This document shows positions 3,678 through 58,073 of a stretch of DNA of 64,000 nt, piece after piece (position 1 is the first letter of the stretch; every line of letters begins with the position of its first letter). Where the stretch lies: assembly GCF_030643905.1 (NCBI RefSeq), contig NZ_CP121446.1, positions 1,984,001 to 2,048,000 on the forward strand. Direction: 5' to 3'. The position numbers were made by a program, and so were the translations under genes. Origin of the DNA: Flavobacterium sp. IMCC34852 (lineage in GTDB: Bacteria > Bacteroidota > Bacteroidia > Flavobacteriales > Flavobacteriaceae). The notes under the pieces were generated by a model. The model did no database searches, was not told the origin of the DNA, and worked only from the letters and a program-made list of their open reading frames with translations.

Positions 3678-5397
3678 AGGCTAACACTTTTTGTTTTCCT
3701 TTGAAGCCCAATTGCATTAGAATTGACAGTACAATGGTCAATGAAGCCCCAATGAAATTAAGCCATAAATACCCTAATTTTTCTTGTCCGTTAGGGTAAA
3801 TGTGAATCGCATAGTAATAGATAAAGAAAATGGTAGTTTGGCTGATAACAGCACTATAGAAAATAGCATTGGCTTTTACAAATTTTAGGTAAAACCCAAC
3901 CAAGAAAACACCCAGAACTGTTCCGTAGAATATTGACCCAACAATATTTACCAACTGAATGAGGTTTTCAAAAAGCGTTCCGACACAAGCAAATAAAATA
4001 GCAATCACACCCCAAAGCAAAGTAAAATACTTGGTAGCATTTACAAAATGCTTTTCAGATTTTTCGCCTTTGACATTGCGTTTGTAAATATCAATAGCCG
4101 TTGTTGAGGCCAAAGCAGTCAAACCCGATGCGGAAGACGACATGGCAGCAGATAAAATCACCGCCAACAAAAGCCCAATCAATCCCGAAGGCAAATAGTT
4201 TAGAATAAAATAGATGAAGACATAGTCTTTGTCGTTGGTTTCGGCTTTGCTGTCTACTTTAGCAATGATTTCCTTGGCTTGGTCATGCAAATCTTTTTCT
4301 TTGCCCGATAATGAAATTAGTTTTTGACGCAATATAGGGTTGTCATAATTTTGATTCAAGTGATCAATATATAATAAATTGAATTCCTTCTTTTCTTCGG
4401 AGAGTTGGGTTAACTGTTTCTCGAGTGAATTATATTCCTGAGCATAAACCGATTTTTCAACGGCAGTTTTGTTTACCGGATTAAAATGTAATGGTACCGG
4501 ATTGAATTGAAAAAAAACAAAAACCATCACACCGGTTAACAAAATAAAAAACTGCATCGGGACTTTGAGAAAACCGTTCATAATTAATCCCATCTGACTT
4601 TCTCTATCTGATTTTCCGGATAAATAGCGTCCAACTTGTGATTGGTCGGTTCCAAAATAAGAAAGCATCAGGAAAAAACCTCCGGTGATTCCGCTCCAAA
4701 AAGTATATCGGTTTTCAGGGTCGAAAGAAAAATCAAGGATATTCATTTTGTCATTGGCTCCCGCAATATGCATGGCATTAGAGAAAGTCATATCATTGGG
4801 TAACAAATGCAATATCAAAAAGAACGTGATAAACATACCGCTCATGATGATAAACATTTGTTGTTTTTGGGTGACGTTTACGGCTTTGGTTCCTCCGGCG
4901 AAAGTGTAGATGATTACCAGAATTCCGATGATAATGTTAAGTAAGGTAAGGTTCCAACCCAAAATAGAAGACAAAATAATAGCCGGTGCGTAAATGGTCA
5001 AACCGGTTCCCAATCCGCGTTGGATTAAAAATAAAATCGCCGTAAAAGAGCGTGTTTTTAAATCGAAACGCTGTTCTAAATATTCATAGGCGGTAAAGAC
5101 TTTCAGTTTATGATAAATGGGAATGAATGTCATTGATATGACTACCATGGCAATAGGTAAACCAAAGTAAAACTGCACAAATCCCATTCCGTCATGATAG
5201 GCTTGTCCGGGTGTGGAAAGAAAAGTTATGGCACTAGCTTGGGTTGCCATAACTGATAAACCTACTGTCCACCACGGGGTTTCTTTGTTGCCCAAAATGT
5301 ATTCTTCTACATTGGCACTTCCTTTGGTTTTATAAACGCCGTAAAAAACAATAAAAAGCAAAGTAACCGATAAAACGATCCAGTCGAGTTGTTGCAT
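3676..5397 (-). CDS. Sodium:solute symporter (SSS family)
   Basis: A 573-residue polytopic membrane protein of the sodium:solute symporter family, with about 13-14 hydrophobic segments. Typical landmarks are the N-terminal GNKETPWWTVGLSVMATQAS, the Gly-rich IYTFAGGTKAVNVTQ and the later AVILSAAMSSSASGLTALAS. An unusual hydrophilic, Glu/Lys/Gln-rich insert of about 75 residues (roughly 315-390) separates two membrane segments and looks coiled-coil-like. The gene follows a 35-residue membrane protein and a PIG-L hydrolase on the same strand with 1 bp gaps, so the three should be co-expressed. The substrate may be a deacetylated sugar or similar product of the PIG-L enzyme, but that is only context. 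Confidence 0.92.
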   Translation of the reverse strand: MQQLDWIVLSVTLLFIVFYGVYKTKGSANVEEYILGNKETPWWTVGLSVMATQASAITFLSTPGQAYHDGMGFVQFYFGLPIAMVVISMTFIPIYHKLKVFTAYEYLEQRFDLKTRSFTAILFLIQRGLGTGLTIYAPAIILSSILGWNLTLLNIIIGILVIIYTFAGGTKAVNVTQKQQMFIIMSGMFITFFLILHLLPNDMTFSNAMHIAGANDKMNILDFSFDPENRYTFWSGITGGFFLMLSYFGTDQSQVGRYLSGKSDRESQMGLIMNGFLKVPMQFFILLTGVMVFVFFQFNPVPLHFNPVNKTAVEKSVYAQEYNSLEKQLTQLSEEKKEFNLLYIDHLNQNYDNPILRQKLISLSGKEKDLHDQAKEIIAKVDSKAETNDKDYVFIYFILNYLPSGLIGLLLAVILSAAMSSSASGLTALASTTAIDIYKRNVKGEKSEKHFVNATKYFTLLWGVIAILFACVGTLFENLIQLVNIVGSIFYGTVLGVFLVGFYLKFVKANAIFYSAVISQTTIFFIYYYAIHIYPNGQEKLGYLWLNFIGASLTIVLSILMQLGFKGKQKVLA

Positions 5398-5398
5398 A

Positions 5399-5506
5399 TC
5401 AGAAGAATAATTGCATTAATATAAAGAAGATGATAATATAAATGGCATTGGCTATCAAAACCCAAGTATAGCTATTCTTCCAAACTGTTTTTTTTTCCTG
5501 TTCCAT
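5399..5506 (-). CDS. Small single-span membrane protein (35 aa)
   Basis: An open frame of 35 codons begins at ATG 5506 and stops at TGA 5401-5399. It fills the gap exactly between the PIG-L stop (TAA at 5508-5510) and the symporter start (5397). The product opens with a charged, Lys-rich cytoplasmic-type head (MEQEKKTVWKNSYTWVL) followed by one hydrophobic helix ending in MQLFF. One-base gaps on both sides argue strongly for real translation. By position it may be an accessory subunit of the symporter. I do not recognise a named family. Confidence 0.7.
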   Translation of the reverse strand: MEQEKKTVWKNSYTWVLIANAIYIIIFFILMQLFF

Positions 5507-5507
5507 T

Positions 5508-8009
5508 TTATTTTCCAATTGCTAACATGTTGGCCATTAACCTAAACGCTCCCGGAACGCCTTCGGGTAATTCTCTGAAGAAACTAAGACCGGTATAAAT
5601 ATAATTCCCTTTGCCGTATTTGGCTACCAATAAAGCGCCATTTTTAGGTTTTTCGCCTTTGTCATTGGCCGAAAGGATAGGTGTGAAGTTGGCATCCCAT
5701 TCACTCGGATAATACAAGCCTTGCTCTTGTTTCCAGCCTTTGAAATCTTCGGCAGTAATTTTATTCGGATAATTTAAAACCGGATGGTTTGGTGCTAAAA
5801 ATCGGACTTCGGCATCTTCTTCAGTTACTCGGTCTCGCGATAGTTTCAAGGAAAAAGGAGCCATTTCTTTGGTAACTAAATCATCCAAAGTATTGTATTG
5901 CACAATCATTGTTTTGCCATTCTGTACAAAATCTAATAATATTTTTTGTTTGTAAGCCAAAGCATTTACCACATTATAAGCTCGGATTCCGGTCATAACC
6001 ACGTCAAAATTGGCCAAAAGTTCAACGGTAATTTCTTCCGGTTTTAAAATAGACACTTCGTAACCCATTTGCGTCAGGCTTTGCGGAACTTCATCGCCTG
6101 CCCCCATAATATAGGCGATTTTTTCGTTTTTGGTTTTGATTTTTAAGCGAATTGCTTTGGCTTCAGCCGGTTTCAAAACCATTTGCTTGTAGATATGCGA
6201 ATAGTTGATATCGATTTTTTCTTTGTCGAAAGTTTGGCCATCAACGGTCACTATGCTTTTAATCTCAATTTCACTGGCATCTTCTGAAGGTGAAACGGAA
6301 AACACAGCCGAAAAGTCTTGACCTTTTTTGTCAATGGTAAAAGGAATTTCGGTCGGATTGGCTTTCCATTCTTGGGGCAAATCTAATTTCACTTTTCCGG
6401 TTATATTGTCTTTTCCGGCTTTGACTTTTACCGTAATTGTTTTGCTTCGGTCGTTATTGAAAATGTATACTTTTTCAGCAATAGAAGAAGTTGCCACAGG
6501 AACGATATCTAAAGGCTGATAGACTTCGCCCTTAACATCGTCATTGTATTTGTAAATTACATTGCGATCGAAAGGAATTGTAACATTGTTAATTCCAATC
6601 CAAAAACCAACTTTCACCCGGCGCAATACATCAGGAAAGCCTATGTTTTCCTGACTGTCAACGCGATACATGCCATTAGTTCCTTTTTGATTTAGCCAAT
6701 AAGCATTGGTGTAATCAAAGTCATTTGGAAGCTGTAAAGTGTTAGTGGTTGTGTAAGGAATGTTGTTTTTTAAAGGAATAGTATTTTTTTGGTCAGCTAC
6801 ATAAACCGGCACAGCTCCAATACCTTCTAGGTTGATAGCAATATTGCTTCGGTTAATGGCTTCAATTTTAATTTTTAGCGGACTTCCCGGAGTAACTTCT
6901 TGAACATCGGCTACAGCTTCTAAATACAATCCGGCGCAAGCGGCTATGATTTCTTTAATTTCTTCTGATTTGATGGTTTTCCAATGCTTGTCTTCCAGAT
7001 TTTCAATTAGGGTAAAAGCCTTTACCAATTCAGGAATGCTGGCCGAAGGATTTTTAAAATCGAAGTTTTTCTCTACAGCATATAAAATATCACCAATTTC
7101 CTTTCCGCCTTTTACTCGATTCCAAGTGGTATCGATGCCTTCAAACAAATTAGTTTTGTCTTTAGGCATATCGCCTTTTAAAAATTCTAAATATTCGTCT
7201 TCTTCACCGCGACTTCCGGTAGCACCAAAGCCTTGGGATTGGTGGCGACTGCGACTCAAAGCTGCAATTTCCTGATTGGATTTTCCGACGGATTGGTAAT
7301 ACGTTCCGATTTTTAGATTGATTAAGTTGGTTTTATCGGCGGCTTCAAATTTTTCTCGGCTACCATAAAACCACCAAGAAGTGTTGAAAAACAATCTTTT
7401 AGGTTGCCAAGTTGAAACATATTGCAATTGTTCAGGATATTGATTGGCATCATTAACCAAATCAAATGCTTCTATACTGAGCATGGCTGAAGAGGTATGA
7501 TGACCATGAGTTGTTCCCGGAGAACGATGGTCAAATCGGTTGATGATGACATCGGGTTGGAATTTGCGAATGGCCCAAATGACATCGCTTAAAACTTGGT
7601 CTTTGTCCCATATTTTCAAAGTTTCATCCGGATTTTTAGAAAACCCAAAGTCGTTCGCACGAGTAAAGAATTGTTTGCCACCATCAATTTTTCGGGCTTC
7701 AATTAATTCTTGTGTTCTGATAACACCTAATAATTCTCTAAGTTCGGGACCAATAAGATTTTGTCCGCCATCGCCACGGGTTAGAGATAAATAACCGGTT
7801 CTTGCTTTCTTGTCATTAGACAAATAAGAAATTAAACGGGTATTTTCATCATCGGGATGTGCCGCTATGTACAATACTGAACCCAGAAAATTAAGTTTTT
7901 GGATTTGGTTGTAAATTTCTACTGCATTAGGTTTGGCCGGCTGTTGTGCCCAAATGGATGGTGTGAAAAGAAATAAAAAAACAATAGATAATGAGTAAAG
8001 CTTTTGCAT
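5508..8009 (-). CDS. Secreted PIG-L (LmbE-type) deacetylase-like protein
   Basis: An 833-residue exported hydrolase. Residues 1-21 are a signal peptide ending in AQQ. The PIG-L domain has the zinc motif AHPDDE at 50-55 and the second metal site THGHH at about 167-171, so N-deacetylation of an acetylated sugar or similar amide is expected. The middle contains beta-sandwich regions with NEW3-like character, and the last 200 residues (KNEKIAYIMGAGDEVPQSL onward) resemble a class I glutamine-amidotransferase/ThuA-like fold. The ATG at 8009 is preferred to one 13 codons upstream because only it leaves the signal peptide at the N terminus and because TATATTTG (8043-8036, minus) fits a promoter between the two. 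Cotranscribed with the 35-aa protein and the symporter. Confidence 0.9.
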   Translation of the reverse strand: MQKLYSLSIVFLFLFTPSIWAQQPAKPNAVEIYNQIQKLNFLGSVLYIAAHPDDENTRLISYLSNDKKARTGYLSLTRGDGGQNLIGPELRELLGVIRTQELIEARKIDGGKQFFTRANDFGFSKNPDETLKIWDKDQVLSDVIWAIRKFQPDVIINRFDHRSPGTTHGHHTSSAMLSIEAFDLVNDANQYPEQLQYVSTWQPKRLFFNTSWWFYGSREKFEAADKTNLINLKIGTYYQSVGKSNQEIAALSRSRHQSQGFGATGSRGEEDEYLEFLKGDMPKDKTNLFEGIDTTWNRVKGGKEIGDILYAVEKNFDFKNPSASIPELVKAFTLIENLEDKHWKTIKSEEIKEIIAACAGLYLEAVADVQEVTPGSPLKIKIEAINRSNIAINLEGIGAVPVYVADQKNTIPLKNNIPYTTTNTLQLPNDFDYTNAYWLNQKGTNGMYRVDSQENIGFPDVLRRVKVGFWIGINNVTIPFDRNVIYKYNDDVKGEVYQPLDIVPVATSSIAEKVYIFNNDRSKTITVKVKAGKDNITGKVKLDLPQEWKANPTEIPFTIDKKGQDFSAVFSVSPSEDASEIEIKSIVTVDGQTFDKEKIDINYSHIYKQMVLKPAEAKAIRLKIKTKNEKIAYIMGAGDEVPQSLTQMGYEVSILKPEEITVELLANFDVVMTGIRAYNVVNALAYKQKILLDFVQNGKTMIVQYNTLDDLVTKEMAPFSLKLSRDRVTEEDAEVRFLAPNHPVLNYPNKITAEDFKGWKQEQGLYYPSEWDANFTPILSANDKGEKPKNGALLVAKYGKGNYIYTGLSFFRELPEGVPGAFRLMANMLAIGK

Positions 8010-8035
8010 TGGGATGACTTTAATTGCAATAGCTT

Positions 8036-8043
8036 CAAATATA
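8036..8043 (-). promoter_or_regulatory. Putative -7 element for the PIG-L operon
   Basis: Read on the minus strand this is TATATTTG, a match to the Bacteroidota -7 consensus TAnnTTTG, 27 bp upstream of the chosen PIG-L start. The -33 TTG is not clear, so confidence is limited. Confidence 0.35.
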
Positions 8044-8106
8044 AACATTAAATAAAAAGCAGCGTTTTATTTAATTAGTTTTTAACAAATATGAAGAAAA
8101 TGAGTT

Positions 8107-8487
8107 TTACTCGGAAGAAGCAGTTTGATTGATAAATCGACCTTTAGAATTGTAGGGATACATTTTTTTGTGAACTTGTAATAAGTTGTAAGGTTCATCA
8201 TCATCATAATCGGTTATGGTAACTCGGGCTTTGTTGTATAAAGAATAGCCACCGTAATTTTTTGGCAGTTCAGAGGCTGTTTTCCATTCGCCGTTTTCTT
8301 TGAAATAATAAACCATTCTCAGGTTGTCAAAATACGCTTGAATATTAGGAAAATAAAAATAGCGGATATAGCAATTGGTTTTTTTGTCTATGGGTAAGTT
8401 CTCTTTTTTGGCTGTTGTATGTTGGGCGTAAGTGCTATTTAAAGCCAAAACAAAAACCAAAGCAAGCATTACTTTTAGTGTTTTCAT
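8107..8487 (-). CDS. Small secreted protein, paralog of the neighbouring gene
   Basis: A 126-residue protein with a signal peptide (MKTLKVMLALVFVLALNSTYA before Gln). The mature part is Tyr-rich. It lines up with the protein encoded at 8726-9175: YFYFPNIQAYFD against YYYLPDIEVYYD, YYFKENGEWKTASELPKNY against YIYLRNGRWHRSAALPAHY, and VTITDYDDDEPY against VYLTDYRGNRPY. The two are tandem paralogs that diverged strongly in charge: this one is near neutral or acidic, the neighbour very basic. Function unknown; periplasmic or extracellular by its signal. Confidence 0.8.
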   Translation of the reverse strand: MKTLKVMLALVFVLALNSTYAQHTTAKKENLPIDKKTNCYIRYFYFPNIQAYFDNLRMVYYFKENGEWKTASELPKNYGGYSLYNKARVTITDYDDDEPYNLLQVHKKMYPYNSKGRFINQTASSE

Positions 8488-8670
8488 GATTTTGTAAATT
8501 TGGGGTTAACAAAAAATATCAATCAACTGATTTAAATCAAGTCAAAGATATTCATAATTTATCTTCAAAATGTACTTTTTAACGCTGAATTGCAATATTT
8601 TGTGTAAAAATTAAGAAATATATTATATTATAATATTGATAATTAGCTATTTAAATAAAAATAAAATGGT

Positions 8671-8711
8671 TTAAAAAAGAAAGAGCAAGGAGAAATCCCT
8701 ACTCTTTTTAC
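8671..8711 (-). terminator. Probable terminator of the basic secreted protein gene
   Basis: Read on the minus strand, AAAGAG and then AGG pair imperfectly with CCT and CTCTTT around a short loop, followed by a T run (plus-strand A run at about 8672-8679). It lies just after the stop codon at 8726. The stem is interrupted. Confidence 0.5.
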
Positions 8712-8725
8712 TGTAAATGTTTTGA

Positions 8726-9175
8726 TTAGTGTTTTCCTTTTCCATGGCCTTTTCCCGGATGTCCTTTGTGTTTTCCATTACCATTCCCCGGCGAGCTTTT
8801 GTAATAGGCTTTATTCTTCCAGTTGCCGTTTCCTTTGTATTTTACTTTGTGGGTTTTATAGTAGGCGTAAGGTCTGTTGCCTCTGTAATCGGTTAAATAA
8901 ACAGTTCGGCCTCTATACAAGTCGTAACCTCTGTAATGTGCCGGTAATGCAGCAGAACGATGCCATCTGCCATTTCTTAAATAGATATATCTTCTGGCCG
9001 GAACATCATAATATACTTCAATATCGGGAAGATAATAATAATGAACTTCTACCGGTGCTGCCGGTGCCCAAACCGGAGGTGTACCAACATTTACATTAAC
9101 TGAAACTTGAGCTCTACTGCTTACCGTGAACGCCAACAGCGTTACCAGTAAATAAAATAACTTTCTTGTTTTCAT
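8726..9175 (-). CDS. Secreted basic protein with Gly/His/Lys-rich tail
   Basis: A 149-residue exported protein with a signal peptide ending SSRA/QV. It has a short VNVNVG and proline-rich segment, a Tyr/Arg-rich core (PDIEVYYDVPARRYIYLRNG, then DYRGNRPYAYYKTHKVKYKG), and a C-terminal tail of repeated Gly-Asn-Gly-Lys-His-Lys-Gly units. The core matches the neighbouring 126-residue protein. The tail could bind polyanions or metal, but that is inference. A 20-bp perfect palindrome lies in its upstream region. Confidence 0.82.
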   Translation of the reverse strand: MKTRKLFYLLVTLLAFTVSSRAQVSVNVNVGTPPVWAPAAPVEVHYYYLPDIEVYYDVPARRYIYLRNGRWHRSAALPAHYRGYDLYRGRTVYLTDYRGNRPYAYYKTHKVKYKGNGNWKNKAYYKSSPGNGNGKHKGHPGKGHGKGKH

Positions 9176-9201
9176 AATACTTAGTTTTAAATGAAATTTA
9201 T

Positions 9202-9221
9202 TTTTCTATTTAAATAGAAAA
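9202..9221. repeat. Perfect 20-bp palindrome upstream of the basic secreted protein
   Basis: TTTTCTATTTAAATAGAAAA reads the same on both strands with no loop, 27-46 bp upstream of the start at 9175. It could be a dimeric operator or an mRNA 5' hairpin. A possible -7 element (TAATTTTG on the minus strand) lies further upstream. Confidence 0.55.
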
Positions 9222-9318
9222 GCAAATTCCCCAGTTCTTTGAATTTATATTTCAAAATTAGGGTGAATGTAAACTAAGTATGTTATATGATTTTGAGTAA
9301 GATTTACAGAATTAAAAT

Positions 9319-9849
9319 CTAATCGGTGAATTCTTTGTCTTCGAACTTAGGCTTAACAATGGAAATTCCTTTTTGCAGTAAGAGGTTATTGGGATAAACC
9401 ATGAGTTCACCGTCTTTGGTGATTAGGTCCGTATGAAAAGCATTAATATCAATAATTTCGCCTTCGAAAGGAAAATCTTTGTCATGTACTTTAATGATGT
9501 CGCCAATTTTAAAAGGAAAAGAAAAAAATAAAATAATACCGGAAGTAATGTTACTTAGGATGGACCATTGGGCAAACATGGCTACACCAACCACTGTTGC
9601 AATGGAAGATAATGTAATTAGGATGTCATTCTTTTGTACGCCCCAAATTACAATCAACGAAATGACGGCTAAAATGCTAATGAGTAAGTGAATGTATTTG
9701 ATGACTAAATTGGTTCTTTTTTCTATACCCGTATGTGATCTTGAATATCTTTTCACCGCTTTGGTTACCATTATTCGTAAAAGAACCACAATAAGAATTA
9801 CCAATCCGGTAGCGATTTCTTCTTTTAAGTAGTATTCAAAAAAGTTCAT
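9319..9849 (-). CDS. Small mechanosensitive channel (MscS family)
   Basis: A 176-residue membrane protein, close to the minimal MscS core. It has N-terminal membrane helices at about 13-30 and 50-72, then the pore helix and beta domain TVVGVAMFAQWSILSNITSG, followed by FPFKIGDIIKVHD. MscS channels release solutes on hypo-osmotic shock. It lies 6 bp downstream of the maf gene on the same strand and is probably the last gene of that operon. The large C-terminal vestibule of E. coli MscS is mostly missing, as in many short homologs. Confidence 0.88.
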   Translation of the reverse strand: MNFFEYYLKEEIATGLVILIVVLLRIMVTKAVKRYSRSHTGIEKRTNLVIKYIHLLISILAVISLIVIWGVQKNDILITLSSIATVVGVAMFAQWSILSNITSGIILFFSFPFKIGDIIKVHDKDFPFEGEIIDINAFHTDLITKDGELMVYPNNLLLQKGISIVKPKFEDKEFTD

Positions 9850-9855
9850 GACATT

Positions 9856-10437
9856 TTATAAATTAGTTAGATATGCATAGACTTTATCCGTTGGTAATCC
9901 AACAACATTAGTATAAGAACCTTCTATTTTAGCTATACCTACAAGCCCAATCCATTCTTGGATGCCATAAGCGCCGGCTTTGTCAAAGGGTTTGTAATGG
10001 TCTAAATAATACTGAATAGCTTCGTCTGAAAGCTTATTAAAAGTCACTTTGGTCACTTCAAAAACAGTTTCTGTTTTGTGAATGGTCTTAAAGCAAACCG
10101 AAGTAATGACTTCATGTGTTTTGCCTGACATGGATTTCAACATTTGAAAGGCATCATCATAATCTTTGGGTTTGCCCAAGGCTTTGTTTTCAAACCAAAC
10201 AATGGTATCGCTGGTGATTAAAATTTCATTCTCGGCTATTTCTCCTTCAAAAGCATTGGCTTTTAGGATAGCCAGAAAATTGGTAATTTCTACGCCCTGA
10301 AGGTTTTCGGGATAAATTTCATCTATTTCTTTTAGTCTGATTTCAAAATCGACCGCTAACTCTTTTAAAAACTGCTGTCTTCTCGGCGAACCGGAAGCTA
10401 AGATGATTTTGTAGTTTTTATCAAAAGAACTAAGCAT
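9856..10437 (-). CDS. maf: Maf family nucleotide pyrophosphatase
   Basis: A 193-residue Maf/HAM1-like protein. Motifs seen are the N-terminal LASGSPRRQQFLKEL, TSDTIVWFENKALGKPKD and DKAGAYGIQEWIG, which together make up the nucleotide-binding site of the family. Members hydrolyse nucleoside triphosphates such as dTTP/UTP, including modified bases, to monophosphates. It overlaps the UbiA gene by 8 bp and precedes the MscS gene by 6 bp, so it sits mid-operon. Confidence 0.93.
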   Translation of the reverse strand: MLSSFDKNYKIILASGSPRRQQFLKELAVDFEIRLKEIDEIYPENLQGVEITNFLAILKANAFEGEIAENEILITSDTIVWFENKALGKPKDYDDAFQMLKSMSGKTHEVITSVCFKTIHKTETVFEVTKVTFNKLSDEAIQYYLDHYKPFDKAGAYGIQEWIGLVGIAKIEGSYTNVVGLPTDKVYAYLTNL

Positions 10438-11356
10438 TGTTTTTAATGTTCAAATTGATGACTAAAATAGACAATATTCCGAACAAGATAACCCACTTTA
10501 ACACCGAACTTAACAAATGAAAATTCTTTTTAGACTTGGCGTTCCAAATTTTAATTACAAAGAAGATCATTGGACCAACCACAAAAAGTAAGGCATAAAC
10601 CACAGCATAATAGAGATGGTTTTCCATCAAATAAGTATTGATGTACCAAAGTAAAATCAGTGTTGCTATAATTCCGAGTCCGAAAACCACTTTGGCTGTT
10701 CGGCTAACACCTATGGCAATTGGTAAAGTATTCATTCCTTGATTGTAATCACCATTTACATCTTCCATGTCTTTAACAATTTCTCTAATAAAATTAATGA
10801 TAAAAGCAAACAAAGCATAATCTAAAAGCAATGAAAAATACACGCCCATTTCCTTCTGATTGTTTTCAAAAGTAAGTGGTAATAAATCGTATACGCCAAT
10901 AATTAAAATACTAATGGCTAAGAGAAACGCCACGATGATATTGCCAATCAACAACATTCTTTTAAAGGTCGTAGCGTACAAATACAACAAAGTAACGATG
11001 ATGATAAAAATCCCGGCGAATGTGGGTTTTTGAATAGTATTCGACAGATAAAAACCAATCCCGACACCGGTGACATTTAAAGCAAAATAAATATTATAAG
11101 CCATAGCTTCCGAGATACCTTTGCCAATGACCATTTTGAAAGGTTTGTTTTCGCTATCGGTTTCTTGGTCCATTACATCATTAATGATATAACCGGCTCC
11201 GGCAATCATCAGAGTCGATAAAACTAATAAACCGTATTGAAAATCATTTAAAAACAAATAAATAGCTTCATGCTTCAGAAATCCGTATCGGAAAATCAAT
11301 TGCATAAAAGCGAGTAGAAGTAGGTTTTGGTATCTAATTAATCTTAAAAAGTTCAT
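10430..11356 (-). CDS. UbiA-type prenyltransferase (geranylgeranylglycerol-phosphate type)
   Basis: A 308-residue integral membrane prenyltransferase with about eight or nine hydrophobic helices. The two Asp-rich motifs that bind Mg and prenyl diphosphate are both visible: INDVMDQETDSENKP at about 59-73 and KDMEDVNGDYNQGMNTLP in the second half. Orthologs in Flavobacteriia are annotated as geranylgeranylglycerol-phosphate geranylgeranyltransferase; that substrate is taken from family knowledge, not visible here. It is in a minus-strand operon with the KdsC-like phosphatase upstream and maf downstream (8 bp overlap). Confidence 0.88.
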   Translation of the reverse strand: MNFLRLIRYQNLLLLAFMQLIFRYGFLKHEAIYLFLNDFQYGLLVLSTLMIAGAGYIINDVMDQETDSENKPFKMVIGKGISEAMAYNIYFALNVTGVGIGFYLSNTIQKPTFAGIFIIIVTLLYLYATTFKRMLLIGNIIVAFLLAISILIIGVYDLLPLTFENNQKEMGVYFSLLLDYALFAFIINFIREIVKDMEDVNGDYNQGMNTLPIAIGVSRTAKVVFGLGIIATLILLWYINTYLMENHLYYAVVYALLFVVGPMIFFVIKIWNAKSKKNFHLLSSVLKWVILFGILSILVINLNIKNNA

Positions 11357-54835: not shown

Positions 54836-54966
54836 CTGTCACATTTTGCAGCGATTAGTCTGTTACGATGTTAGCGAACTGCGTACTGTCTGCTTAGATA
54901 AAGTTTTTAAGTTGTATTCAACAAAAACCAGCAATAGCGCAAAACCGCAGTTATAGGGCGTTTTTT
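54836..54966. repeat. Cassette-junction repeat A (most diverged)
   Basis: The right end AAACCGCAGTTATAGGGCG (54943-54961) aligns with the right ends of repeats B-D around GTTA, but the left end is unclear (somewhere near 54836-54880). It lies 3' of the minus-strand gene at 55009-55359 and marks the edge of the array towards the Hsp20 gene. Confidence 0.4.
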
Positions 54967-55008
54967 ATTTACTGCTTATTTCAATTTTTCCACTTTTTAT
55001 AAACACCT

Positions 55009-55359
55009 CTAAGTTCCAATTTGTCCGTGAAAAATATGTACAATTACGAGTAAAATAGTTAGACCATAAAACCAAAAAATATTTTTTCTATTGCCTTTGA
55101 TTGTTCTCCATGAGACAAGTATAAGCATTGTAAAGAAAAGTAAACCCCAAACGAGATTTACTATTGAGTAAAGTCTTGATGACTTGTAATAATATGGAGT
55201 TGAACCTTCTCCACCAAATGGATAACCATCTGTTTGGTTGAGAATACCAATCAAATAAAAGTCGTACAAATTCAACACTGAAAATATTCCACAAAGAAAT
55301 ATTATCAAAATTGAAAATGTCCAAAATGTCTGTCTGTTGATATTGGTCTCTGTCGTCAT
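55009..55359 (-). CDS. Three-span membrane protein of unknown function (cassette gene 4)
   Basis: A 116-residue protein starting MTTETNINRQTFWTFSILII. Helices lie at about 12-35, 63-85 and 94-114, with a polar loop TDGYPFGGEGSTPYYYKSSR between the first two. I chose the ATG at 55359, because the longer frame would read into the flanking repeat. I do not recognise a family. It is bounded by repeat B (5') and repeat A (3') and oriented like the three other genes of the array. Low GC content, as in its neighbours. Confidence 0.68.
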   Translation of the reverse strand: MTTETNINRQTFWTFSILIIFLCGIFSVLNLYDFYLIGILNQTDGYPFGGEGSTPYYYKSSRLYSIVNLVWGLLFFTMLILVSWRTIKGNRKNIFWFYGLTILLVIVHIFHGQIGT

Positions 55360-55369
55360 TCTAAAATAC

Positions 55370-55508
55370 CCTATAATGTGTTGCCGCTTGCAAAAGCTGC
55401 GACGATTTATTACTAATAATTCCAAGTATGAAACTTGGCTTTTAATTTTCAGAGAAAATTCGGAGCAAGCCCAAGCTCGCAGTAGTTACAAACTGCTGTT
55501 AGCAGTAG
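55370..55508. repeat. Cassette-junction repeat B, attC-like
   Basis: It runs from CTATAATGTGTTGCCGCTTG at 55370 to CTGCTGTTAGCA near 55494-55505. An internal hairpin (CCAAGT/ACTTGG, 55422-55438) separates the two halves. Its left and middle parts align with repeat D (GATTTATTA, then TTCCAAGT and AAACTTGGCTTT). The right end GTTAGCA is the conserved core. The left core is degraded to TATAA. Confidence 0.65.
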
Positions 55509-55512
55509 TGCT

Positions 55513-56070
55513 TTATTTTTCTCGTATGATTTTCTTCAATTTGTTTAATTCACTGTATAATCCGAAACCATCTGTGTCAACTTCCGAACCCAAAAATCTT
55601 GAAACACCACAACCAAAGCAAACTTTAGCAATTCCAATAATTGAATCGTTCTTTTTAAAAATAAAAATGTCACGATAATAAGGCAGGCAAGAAGAAAATT
55701 CGGTTTGAATCGAATCCTTTTTACTAAAGATATTTTCCACTTCCTTTTTCTTTGTTTCGTTTAGTTCAGTCTTTTTAAATTTATATTTATGTAATTTAAT
55801 TTCAAAGTTTGGTTCAGTAATCGAATCTGGATAATGACTAACTAGTAAACTTATAAAGTCCTCTTGTTCTTCATTTTTATTTTTTACTCGAGCTAGTTTC
55901 ATTACTTTTTCTTCTGAAATGTCTAAATAATAATGATCAATTTCATCAGAATCGTAAAACTTTTTCGAATCCTTTTTAACTGATAAACTTTCTTTTAAAG
56001 CTACCATGTTTTCTTCTTTCGGTTTATTACAGCCCGCAATTATTAAAAGTAAGAATATAAATTTTTTCAT
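55513..56070 (-). CDS. Lipoprotein of unknown function (cassette gene 3)
   Basis: A 185-residue lipoprotein: MKKFIFLLLIIAGC, lipobox Cys14. The rest is hydrophilic and Lys/Glu/Ser-rich (NKPKEENMVALKESLSVKKD), with two Cys late in VCFGCGVSRFLGSEVDTDGF. I chose ATG 56070; the longer frame starts inside the repeat boundary. No family is recognised. It lies between repeats C and B. Confidence 0.68.
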   Translation of the reverse strand: MKKFIFLLLIIAGCNKPKEENMVALKESLSVKKDSKKFYDSDEIDHYYLDISEEKVMKLARVKNKNEEQEDFISLLVSHYPDSITEPNFEIKLHKYKFKKTELNETKKKEVENIFSKKDSIQTEFSSCLPYYRDIFIFKKNDSIIGIAKVCFGCGVSRFLGSEVDTDGFGLYSELNKLKKIIREK

Positions 56071-56103
56071 ATATTTTATGTTTGCAATTTCTATTGGCAT
56101 TAC

Positions 56104-56249
56104 TGCTAACGTGCCACCGCTTGTAACTGTTGGGATAATTTATCACTGTTGATTCAAAATAAAAAACTACTTTTTGCCCCGAAACTTCGGGGTCGGAGAA
56201 AACTCTAAATAATCCCAAGCCACGCAATTATCACAAGCTGCTGTTAGCA
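56104..56249. repeat. Cassette-junction repeat C, attC-like with both ends intact
   Basis: It starts TGCTAACGTGCCACCGCTTGT (56104 on) and ends ACAAGCTGCTGTTAGCA (about 56233-56249). The ends are inverted: TGCTAAC against GTTAGCA and GCTTGT against ACAAGC, with unequal spacers of 8 and 4 bp between the two boxes, as in attC sites. An internal CCCCGAA/TTCGGGG hairpin (56177-56192) fills the centre. Confidence 0.7.
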
Positions 56250-56259
56250 CCGGTAGTTT

Positions 56260-57153
56260 TTATTCATTCGGTTTCGCGTTTACTAATTTGTCAATTTGAA
56301 CTCTCTCTGCAAAGTCAGCAAGTTTATACTCAATTTTTGTTGTGTTGAAAATGTCTTTAACTTTTTCCGCTTTGTCAGGATGAATAATTCTACAGTTTTT
56401 GAAATCAAAATTTTCGAGAAAATTTCCAAATCTTTCTTTAAATGTGTCTGAACTTATAAGCCCAACTTCTTCAATTGTCCGAAACAATTTCTTGTATTTT
56501 TTTGTCAGTAGGAAATAGTCAACAGGTGGAAAAACATTTGGAATATGTTCTGTCCAAGTGCAAAGTGTAATTATTTGTCCGTCAGTTTTTCTTTTAAAAA
56601 GATAAAGTTTTGGAACGTAATAATTGTCGCCTAACTTTTCTTGTAATGCTAACTTGTTGTGATTATAGTTATAAAAGTCATTTGATTTCTCTATTGGATA
56701 AAATTCAAGTTCATATTCTTTAAAAAAAATCGCTGAATTTCTTGAATTCGTTTCTGACCAATTTTCATAAAGTTCATTGTCTTTTGGCTTTATTGGATTG
56801 TCTGGGTCAATAGTTGATTGTGGATTGAGAACAAATAAATCAAGGTCTTTAATGAATTTGTCCACAAATTCAAATGCAAACTGTCCGAAAAAGTCAGGTC
56901 TCAAATAATTAAGATTGAAAGTGAAATGAGTATTTTCAAATTCAGCAAAGTTTTCAAACAACTCAATACTTTCTTCATCAGTTTCAGGTTCATTTTGGCT
57001 AAGCGAAAAATATGCCTCCGTATCTTCGTCTTCAACAAACCATTGTGTGTCACTTTCATTTGTTGAAGTCAAGTTTTTAGTTAAATATTCAGCGATTTGA
57101 CTTTCTGTCAAATCAGAAGTTTTTCTCTTATAAAAGTATAAATCGTAACTCAT
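56260..57153 (-). CDS. Unknown acidic protein (cassette gene 2)
   Basis: A 297-residue soluble, acidic protein with no signal peptide: MSYDLYFYKRKTSDLTESQI at the start and many Asp/Glu runs (EDEDTEAYFSLSQNEPETDE). The opening 'SYDLYFYKRK' phrase recurs in hypothetical proteins, but I cannot attach a function. It might be an immunity or accessory protein, but there is no toxin in sight. Between repeats D and C. Codon use is typical of its neighbours. Confidence 0.72.
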   Translation of the reverse strand: MSYDLYFYKRKTSDLTESQIAEYLTKNLTSTNESDTQWFVEDEDTEAYFSLSQNEPETDEESIELFENFAEFENTHFTFNLNYLRPDFFGQFAFEFVDKFIKDLDLFVLNPQSTIDPDNPIKPKDNELYENWSETNSRNSAIFFKEYELEFYPIEKSNDFYNYNHNKLALQEKLGDNYYVPKLYLFKRKTDGQIITLCTWTEHIPNVFPPVDYFLLTKKYKKLFRTIEEVGLISSDTFKERFGNFLENFDFKNCRIIHPDKAEKVKDIFNTTKIEYKLADFAERVQIDKLVNAKPNE

Positions 57154-57184
57154 TATTTGTTCCTTTGTGTCGTTTTACTATTGT

Positions 57185-57319
57185 CTCTAATGTGCCGCAG
57201 ATTGCAATAGCTGCGAAGATTTATTATTAATGATTCCAAGTACAAAACTTGGCTTTGAATTTTCGGAGAAAACTCTAAATAATCCCAAGCCACGCAATTA
57301 TCACAAACTGCTGTTAGCA
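57185..57319. repeat. Cassette-junction repeat D, attC-like
   Basis: Left part TCTAATGTGCCGCAGATTGC (57185 on), an internal hairpin CCAAGT/ACTTGG (57236-57252), and the right end CACAAACTGCTGTTAGCAG near 57302-57320. Its last 60 bp are almost identical to those of repeat C (TCGGAGAAAACTCTAAATAA, then CCCAAGCCACGCAATTATCA). It follows gene 57333-57794 on the minus strand. Confidence 0.68.
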
Positions 57320-57332
57320 GCCGTATTTTAGA

Positions 57333-57794
57333 TTAATAGTTAACAAATTCTACCCATTTCTTTTCAAAGTAAACAATTGCTATTTGCTTTTGATCTTTTA
57401 TTAGTGCTGCTTTTACAAAAGAATTTTCTTTTCCAAGATACTTTAATTCCATATCCATGGAACTTGTTTCGTAATATGAGCCAAATGGACAATTACTTGG
57501 ATTATCTTCTACGTCAAAAGTCCAAATTGATAGTAATATCATTTTCTTGGAATTTTTGTTTGGTTTTTGGTAGCCAAAAATTCTGCATTCCTTTTGCATT
57601 GACGCATAAAGATTCATGCTATTGTCACTTTTTGATACTTCAAGCTTATTTACAAATTCTGGCTCAGAAAATATATTTTTTTCCCAGTTGACATTTTCTT
57701 TTTCCCAATTTATACTGTCGAGATTTACAATGCTGTTTTGAGAATAACTTAAGCAACAAAACAATAATAATATTTTTATGAGTGCCAATTTCAT
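57333..57794 (-). CDS. Secreted protein of unknown function (cassette gene 1)
   Basis: A 153-residue exported protein: signal peptide MKLALIKILLLFCCLSYS before Gln. The mature part is hydrophilic with two Cys (KECRIFGYQ and NPSNCPFGSYYE), which may form a disulfide, and ends EKKWVEFVNY. No family recognised. Bounded by repeat E (5') and repeat D (3'). Confidence 0.7.
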   Translation of the reverse strand: MKLALIKILLLFCCLSYSQNSIVNLDSINWEKENVNWEKNIFSEPEFVNKLEVSKSDNSMNLYASMQKECRIFGYQKPNKNSKKMILLSIWTFDVEDNPSNCPFGSYYETSSMDMELKYLGKENSFVKAALIKDQKQIAIVYFEKKWVEFVNY

Positions 57795-57819
57795 TTTTTA
57801 AGATAAACGAGTGAATGTT

Positions 57820-57858
57820 GCTGCTAACGTGCCGATATGTATCATTATTTTCAGCAGT
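57820..57858. repeat. Cassette-junction repeat E, truncated left end
   Basis: GCTGCTAACGTGCCG (57820-57833) carries the same TGCTAACGTGCC as repeat C, then stops matching; AGCAG at 57853-57857 could pair with CTGCT. It looks like the edge of the array, where the other half has been lost. Beyond it to 58263 the only clear structure is the 11-bp tandem repeat. Confidence 0.5.
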
Positions 57859-57981
57859 ATTCCAAATTTACAAAATTCCCCACCATCAACCCATCCCCAT
57901 CAGTAGGGAATTATAGTGAAGTTATTAACATAATTTTCTTATAAATGTAGTTTTAAACTCTAATATTCATATAACTACTGC

Positions 57982-58073
57982 GTCATAGTAACGTCATATA
58001 TACGTCATATATACGTCATATAAACGTCATGGATAAGCCATAGATAAGTCATAGATAAGTTATGTTAAGCCAT
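57982..58073. repeat. 11-bp tandem repeat array (about nine GTCAT units)
   Basis: GTCAT or a near variant starts at 57982, 57993, 58004, 58015, 58026, 58037, 58048 and 58059 (exact 11-bp steps) and at 58069. Units are A/T-rich and drift from ACGTCATATAT to GATAAGTCATA across the array. The 470-bp gap it lies in (57795-58263) has no gene. The 11-bp period puts every unit on the same helical face, about 190-280 bp before the response-regulator gene. Confidence 0.75.

Follow-up and report, generated by a model that had tools for sequence, protein, structure and literature searches.

What kind of element is a row of four short minus-strand genes in which a related repeat follows each gene? Such a row is present in the genome of Flavobacterium sp. 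IMCC34852 (3,170,869 bases in one contig, C1), within a stretch of 64,000 nucleotides at C1:1,984,001-2,048,000 that will be called the window. An earlier note, made from the sequence alone, proposed that these genes are integron-like cassettes and that they represent an outlying or relic part of a chromosomal array, or the work of a different recombinase system in Flavobacteriia. The rest of the genome bears out this proposal: it holds a main array of 54 sites, a tyrosine recombinase next to that array that is not an IntI, and satellite clusters without an integrase, and some cores of the window sites are decaying. We put the probability at roughly 85% that the row is a small cassette cluster without an integrase and in part decayed, an outlier resembling a CALIN (cluster of attC sites lacking integron-integrases), of an integron-like system whose platform is located at C1:2,935,777-2,972,208.

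One window repeat searched against its own genome gave 41 matches, mostly in one co-oriented block at 2.94-2.97 Mb. The initial repeat profile was partly trained on opposite-strand palindromic matches, and only its 54 cassette-strand matches were used as the site list. A covariance model was then trained on the 45 distinct attC-like sites of the main array (threshold E <= 0.01) and used to score 150 of the 4,335 first-look candidates in the genome. The earlier note had suggested such a search for further copies, and 71 sites were found: 54 in the main array (2.937-2.972 Mb, the same number as in the site list), nine at 1.731-1.747 Mb, two at 1.976-1.977 Mb, four in the window, and two singles. 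Most sites (69 of 71) are therefore clustered and not scattered singly as a dispersed repeat or a miniature inverted-repeat transposable element (MITE) would be. The sites of the two satellites (C1:1,730,918-1,746,577, in part locus L034, and C1:1,976,491-1,977,376, locus L035) all lie on the minus strand like those of the window, and the main array is on the plus strand.

The four window sites are 115-140 bases long by the covariance model (E from 7.6e-8 to 3.6e-17), and one ends each cassette. The earlier note described five repeats of 135-150 bp, A to E, with shared TGCTAAC and GTTAGCA ends. The repeats are indeed related sites, but repeat A has no right-hand core and "repeat E" is just the right end of a site. 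The ends are also less fixed than was thought. In the main array only GTT(A/G) on the right of every site and its complement (T/C)AAC on the left are constant, and the letters that follow vary from cassette to cassette. The second inverted box with unequal spacers is real in the family, with 14 inner pairs supported among the 45 distinct main-array sites, nine of them by compensatory changes on both sides. The features of attC sites, namely inverted GTT/AAC triplets, two paired boxes and the ability to fold as a single strand, were all found, by sequence and by computed folding.

The main array consists of tandem co-directional cassettes, mostly with a single gene, as expected of an integron. 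An open reading frame (ORF) of at least 60 aa is present in 47 of the 54 cassettes and runs in the sense direction in 46 of those 47; the other seven cassettes have none. There are 16 pairs of cassettes that are 97.5-100% identical over their full length while their neighbours differ. The minimum sequence shared beyond the duplicated unit is AC (two bases) on the left and GTTA (four bases) on the right, and some pairs share up to 17 and 7 border bases owing to the similarity of adjacent sites. One 447-448-base cassette, which lacks an ORF of at least 60 aa, is present in five near-identical copies (k04, k23, k33, k36, k44; for example L031:13667-14113) with different neighbours; a promoter or a small RNA may be its content. 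Pfam searches of the cassette proteins identified eight families with one member each. PADLOC gave one weak match among 42 cassette proteins, so the idea that the array is a defence island is not supported and was dropped. A distant blastn search with one attC-like site against phage and plasmid records gave no match.

A cassette that has existed as a circle should have a start (formed by the right end of the preceding site) that matches its own end, and such complementarity is a signature of formerly circular units. With the cores placed blind by motif, 51 of 54 cassettes had a start complementary to their own end at positions 5-9; between the halves of a single site these positions matched in 2 of 54 (2,000 permutations: mean 2.5, maximum 10). 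The three misses are due to misplaced cores, which were re-placed in a later run. When the AAC was chosen by best match, positions 1-9 were complementary in 54/54 cases, compared with 2/54 for the same site (10,000 permutations: mean 2.65, maximum 10). The blind figure is the safer of the two because the best-match choice favours the higher one. The rule holds down to the last cassette, whose core is GTTG and whose own end has the matching CAAC. These figures and the duplicate borders place the cassette borders inside the core, as circular intermediates would leave them.

The paired arms of the main array extend for 15 nt except at position 10 (65% paired) and position 11 (never paired), and pairing drops to 46% at position 16. 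Position 11 has A opposite C in 47 cassettes, opposite G in six and opposite A in one. Similar arms were found in 141 cassettes from 24 other loci, which were chosen by pairing at positions 1-9 and by chain membership: positions 12-15 pair in 94, 83, 85 and 84% of these, and pairing amounts to 1% at position 11 and 18% at position 16. The idea that G.T pairs are generally in excess on the bottom strand was considered and rejected, since position 11 is nearly always a top-strand A opposite C, yet positions 12-15 in the other loci lean the opposite way. By folding with DNA parameters, the bottom strand in the cassette-circle form exceeds the top strand in stability in 54/54 cassettes, and in 53/54 the circle form of the bottom strand is more stable than its array form, by a mean of 7.8 kcal/mol. 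Canonical integrons likewise use the bottom strand, as described in passages of PMC9892861 and PMC3053210.

The earlier note saw no integrase in the window, and this was confirmed: the genome has nine matches to PF00589 (eight above the cut-off) and none of them is in the window. One match (2,936,293-2,936,778), 0.9 Mb away, adjoins the main array and falls in the 347-residue recombinase listed in Table 1. The best curated match of this protein is the XerA-like NF040815 (221.9 bits, cut-off 220). The integron integrase profile TIGR02249 (integrase_gron) gave 209.4 bits in two separate stretches, below its cut-off of 265. The distance between the KDR and HxLRHS motifs is 61-66 residues in 54 of 54 family members, our recombinase included, compared with 103 in five of five canonical IntI proteins (IntI1 and four from Bacteroidota). 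The IntI-specific domain is therefore absent from the family; in the text of PMC9668308 this domain is named among the characteristics that define integrons. In a quick tree the five IntI rows group together with a support of 100 and the recombinase family falls outside them on a fork with a support of 83. The tree has many open forks, so it shows that IntI is apart and not where the family came from; two intended outgroup rows (L040, L078) were left out. The best structural matches of the recombinase are XerA (5hxy) and IntI (2a3v).

Most members of the family have an extra N-terminal domain. The first two Foldseek rows for the predicted domain are chains of 4o66 (HARP, SMARCAL1). XPB rows are among the best in VIA-align, where 4o66 is not among the 50 rows listed. 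The Pfam HARP family (PF07443) matched one of 40 N-terminal domains weakly (E 0.048), and a profile of the 40 domains searched against PDB sequences gave no HARP chain. Four relatives of the recombinase (L073, L074, L146, L147) are about 600 aa long with apparently up to three copies of the N-terminal motif. In Flavobacterium algicola a recombinase match with two stop codons (L234:10001-11095), which may be broken, is followed by a chain of eight cassettes.

Downstream of the recombinase gene there is a candidate attachment site. The attI-like core starts at 2,936,925, 105 nt after the recombinase stop codon, so that by sequence the site lies beside the enzyme and ends at the core of the first cassette. 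A pair of 9-mers is located 90-115 nt after the last matched recombinase codon in 48 of 61 loci with at least 600 bases downstream, and in two more it is found elsewhere within 20-320 nt; the reversed and complemented controls gave 1 and 0 of 61. Among 37 loci picked for this pair, a hairpin upstream of the core varies in its letters between genomes and stays paired (83% of cells). In the same region (L031:11820-11925 and 36 other loci) a 6-mer at -59 is repeated at -16, 43 bases apart, with 86% agreement within a genome and 45% between genomes. The palindrome and the repeated 6-mer look as if they were read by a co-evolving protein. Degenerate repeats around GCTTCGGA, seen by eye, precede the recombinase gene at L031:10460-10700.

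The recombinase family (E <= 1e-50) is present in 113 of 395 Bacteroidota genomes and in 72 of 170 genera. Since the arm rule compares the start of a unit with its own end, it can be used as an array detector that needs no sequence model. Unfiltered, this detector produced chance chains of T-rich words; these words were filtered out, with the same filter for the controls. Chains of at least three cassettes were then found in 21 of 51 stretches around recombinases, with no control above two. An additional 80 loci were examined, of which 38 have at least 3 kb downstream of the recombinase. Chains of at least three were found downstream in 24 of the 38 and chains of at least two in 29 (controls 0 and 5), and upstream no locus of the 80 had a chain of at least three. 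Recombinase loci, not all with a detectable chain, were identified in F. psychrophilum, F. saccharophilum, F. denitrificans, Kaistella and Paenimyroides and in metagenome-assembled genomes labelled Cyclobacteriaceae, Chitinophagaceae and Saprospiraceae. A plasmid of Chryseobacterium oryzae has a recombinase that is 62.5% identical and one cassette, read by eye, with a VOC-family gene. Viral contigs gave five weak relatives of the recombinase (22-25% identical).

The features of the window cluster and of the platform are included in Table 1. In the four window cassettes, 9, 5, 9 and 8 of the nine start positions are complementary to the cassette's own end, and the first nine bases of the first cassette are complementary to its end at 57313-57321. 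Two of the four window cores are ATT instead of GTT. Rfam searched with relaxed thresholds gave no match in the window cluster or in the first part of the main array. At window positions 57981-58035, between the cluster and a response-regulator gene, an 11-base unit (CGTCATATATA, with variants) is repeated several times in tandem.

Table 1. Coordinates of the window cluster and of the platform (aa, amino acids).
Feature	Window position	C1 position	Strand	Remarks
Left cluster boundary	57814-57834		-	Right end of a site (CGGCAC then GTTAGCAGC); first cassette begins there
Cassette gene 1	57333-57794		-	153 aa; N-terminus secreted-like by eye; no Pfam family above cut-off
attC-like site D, after gene 1	57188-57316	2,041,188-2,041,316	-	Covariance model 100.9 bits; right core ATTA
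Cassette gene 2	56260-57153		-	297 aa; no Pfam family above cut-off
attC-like site C, after gene 2	56107-56246	2,040,107-2,040,246	-	65.9 bits; TAAC and GTTA cores intact
Cassette gene 3	55513-56070		-	185 aa from ATG at 56070; lipoprotein-like N-terminus by eye (LLIIAGC); no Pfam family above cut-off
attC-like site B, after gene 3	55374-55501	2,039,374-2,039,501	-	91.5 bits; right core ATTA
Cassette gene 4	55009-55359		-	116 aa from ATG at 55359; membrane-like by eye; no Pfam family above cut-off
attC-like site A, after gene 4	54839-54953	2,038,839-2,038,953	-	56.1 bits; degraded, right-hand GTT core absent in alignment
Platform		2,935,777-2,972,208	+	Recombinase ORF and 54 cassettes
Tyrosine recombinase		2,935,777-2,936,820	+	347 aa; ORF directly upstream of main array, same direction

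Related genomes differ at these loci. Flavobacterium sp. J49, a close relative, has 57 sites and a recombinase that is 92% identical. The flanks of the window cluster are present in J49 with 82-87% DNA identity, and the 3.0 kb between them holds other ORFs, one 37-base window match and one model site. In F. buctense the same flanks are 14 kb apart. The earlier note held that repeats spread widely outside cassettes, with gene order fixed among strains, would be ordinary dispersed repeats; the clustering described above and the different content in J49 are the reverse of this. The gene part of 11 of the 54 main-array cassettes (8 distinct) was found in the compared stretches of relatives. One cassette is 97% identical in J49, above the identity of the flanks, and the match ends at most 7 bases from the cassette borders; a second shared cassette (94%) matches over its gene and not over its site. 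The shared cassettes and the differing locus content support movement between genomes, and suggest that the window cluster is an outlier of a recently active system.

From these patterns we infer a mechanism in which the adjoining recombinase would act at the GTTR cores. Recombination between the cores of two adjacent attC-like sites would release a cassette as a circle, in which both 15-nt arms of one cassette would meet, allowing the bottom strand to fold into a long hairpin. The recombinase would recognize this hairpin by its shape, because most letters of the arms are free and yet paired, and the N-terminal domain could take part in this recognition. The partner to which the recombinase then joins the hairpin would be the attI-like site or a further attC-like site. 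The cassettes of the window would have been inserted, or have stayed behind, at a position outside the platform, where some of their cores are now decaying.

Several observations weigh against this account. The bottom strand is also the more stable one in the array form (42/54) and with a random cassette start (40/54), which implies that the inner site contributes part of the lean. One window cassette pairs at just 5 of 9 positions. The attI-like pair is missing from the expected distance in 13 of the 61 loci. Chains of at least three are confined to 21 of the 51 stretches, where their position was left free and could be kilobases distant from the recombinase, and to 24 of the 38 downstream regions. 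Many relatives of the enzyme have no detectable array, though some contigs end there. In one locus (L065) the array (4314-9346) is upstream of the recombinase (9597-10556, plus strand) and runs away from it, which is the classical integron layout. Of 20 loci picked for a short reading frame, three carry chains of 4-5, and none of five further short-frame loci has a chain. The long N-terminal domain is therefore not needed in every lineage, and a strict link between this domain and the arrays is ruled out. Finally, a canonical IntI above the curated cut-off is present in 84 of 296 Bacteroidota genomes, so IntI could have built some of the arrays in this phylum.

This last point leads to the strongest of the alternatives that dispute the system itself, that these are ordinary cassettes of a canonical IntI that was lost or resides in other hosts and that the recombinase adjoining the main array has nothing to do with them. 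In 3 of 12 canonical-IntI loci (L260, L262, L267) there are cassette chains whose arms measure about 10 bp, which shows that the logic is common to both, and attC sites of a Polaribacter phage were recombined by IntI1 according to a 2023 study (PMC9892861). None of the 84 genomes is from the order of our strain, however, and a TIGR02249 match at E <= 1e-55 was found in 85 genomes, none of them in this order (one in the same class, 84 in the same phylum); our recombinase, split in two stretches, is not among these matches. The constant spacing between a non-IntI recombinase and the first cassette in 48 of 61 loci and cassette starts that never fit GTTRRRY also speak against a canonical origin, which we regard as improbable. 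The sites are palindromic and numerous, as would be the case for MITE-like or REP-like (repetitive extragenic palindromic) hairpin repeats that came to lie between genes by chance, with no site-specific recombination. This is the least credible of the alternatives, since 54 of the sites form one co-oriented array and dispersal gives no reason for the start-to-own-end rule; it would also need the rule to be gone in other genomes, where it persists.

Single-strand hairpin ends would suit IS91- or IS200/IS605-like enzymes, and the cassettes could then be mobile units moved by such a transposase and not by a tyrosine recombinase. IS91-type elements with a tyrosine recombinase of their own are present near the cassette on the Chryseobacterium plasmid. 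The tyrosine recombinase of the arrays keeps a fixed place before the first cassette, with the chains downstream of it, and we consider a single-strand transposase, for which no systematic search was made, very unlikely. A different alternative accepts the integron-like system and holds that the window cluster is a chromosomally rearranged piece of the main array instead of an insertion of cassettes at a secondary site. Further satellites are present at 1.73-1.75 and 1.976 Mb, and the left boundary of the cluster resembles the right end of a full site, which indicates that more cassettes may once have preceded it. The same flanking genes surround different content in J49 and are 14 kb apart in F. 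buctense, which favours repeated local gain and loss. We consider rearrangement to be a possibility of some weight, though local insertion is the likelier history of this integrase-less outlier.

A broader proposal can be made tentatively, at odds that fall a little short of even. Bacteroidota may have a widespread second integron lineage in which a Xer-like recombinase operates without the IntI-specific domain and in which, in most members, an N-terminal structure-binding domain (HARP/XPB-like, on weak evidence) reads the attC-like hairpins instead. Its origin would be independent of IntI or would predate the gain of the IntI domain. As part of this proposal, the lineage would have been overlooked because integron finders demand the IntI-specific domain; integron detection is described in PMC9668308 as relying on a profile of that domain beside PF00589. 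We found no description of such a non-IntI cassette system among the titles and abstract openings listed from the open literature, a search whose coverage left out preprints and most subscription papers. Integrons of Bacteroidota in general are already published: IntegronFinder 2.0 finds complete integrons in the Bacteroidetes/Chlorobi group, with Salinibacter ruber named (PMC9024848), and PMC8618304 and PMC2426708 also give the phylum as an integron carrier. If the proposal is true, cassette logic exists without the IntI-specific domain, and integrons as a class do not require this domain. Many cassettes would also be added from Bacteroidota, and there would be a test case for the way in which tyrosine recombinases acquired their action on folded single strands.

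The closest known systems are the sedentary chromosomal integrons. Both have tandem one-gene cassettes in one direction with a site after each gene, GTT/AAC triplets, a two-box hairpin with unequal spacers, borders inside the core, a bottom strand that folds better and an attachment site beside the recombinase. The arms in the three canonical-IntI chains indicate that arm logic is common to canonical integrons as well, so long paired arms as a trait unique to the present system are ruled out. This control is thin: chains at k = 9 were found in 3 of 12 loci, and those at k = 7 are mostly no longer than in controls. The differences lie in the enzyme, the layout and the letters. The recombinase has no IntI-specific domain and usually has the extra N-terminal domain, whereas the IntI proteins form a clade of their own. 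The array is downstream of the recombinase and co-directional with it here but upstream of IntI in the three canonical loci. The core is GTTR followed by free letters (GTTR in 54/54 cassette starts) where canonical integrons have GTTRRRY/RYYYAAC (0/54 starts here). Position 11 never pairs in an arm that otherwise extends to 15, while it pairs in 25, 40 and 75% of the cassettes in the three canonical chains (4, 5 and 4 cassettes); this small sample gave no case of the strict position-11 rule combined with pairing to 15.

The window cluster resembles a CALIN in having four sites, above the minimum of two when counted by our own-array model and not by that of IntegronFinder, and no integrase in the window; it differs in that its sites belong to a non-IntI system. 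Archaeal-type XerA and other short tyrosine recombinases are similar to the enzyme itself by the curated and structural matches (NF040815, 5hxy). Xer proteins act on one dif site, whereas the present family accompanies cassette arrays and mostly carries an N-terminal extension. The predicted fold of this extension may be related to the HARP domain of SMARCAL1 (4o66, Foldseek) or to the damage-recognition domain of XPB (VIA-align).

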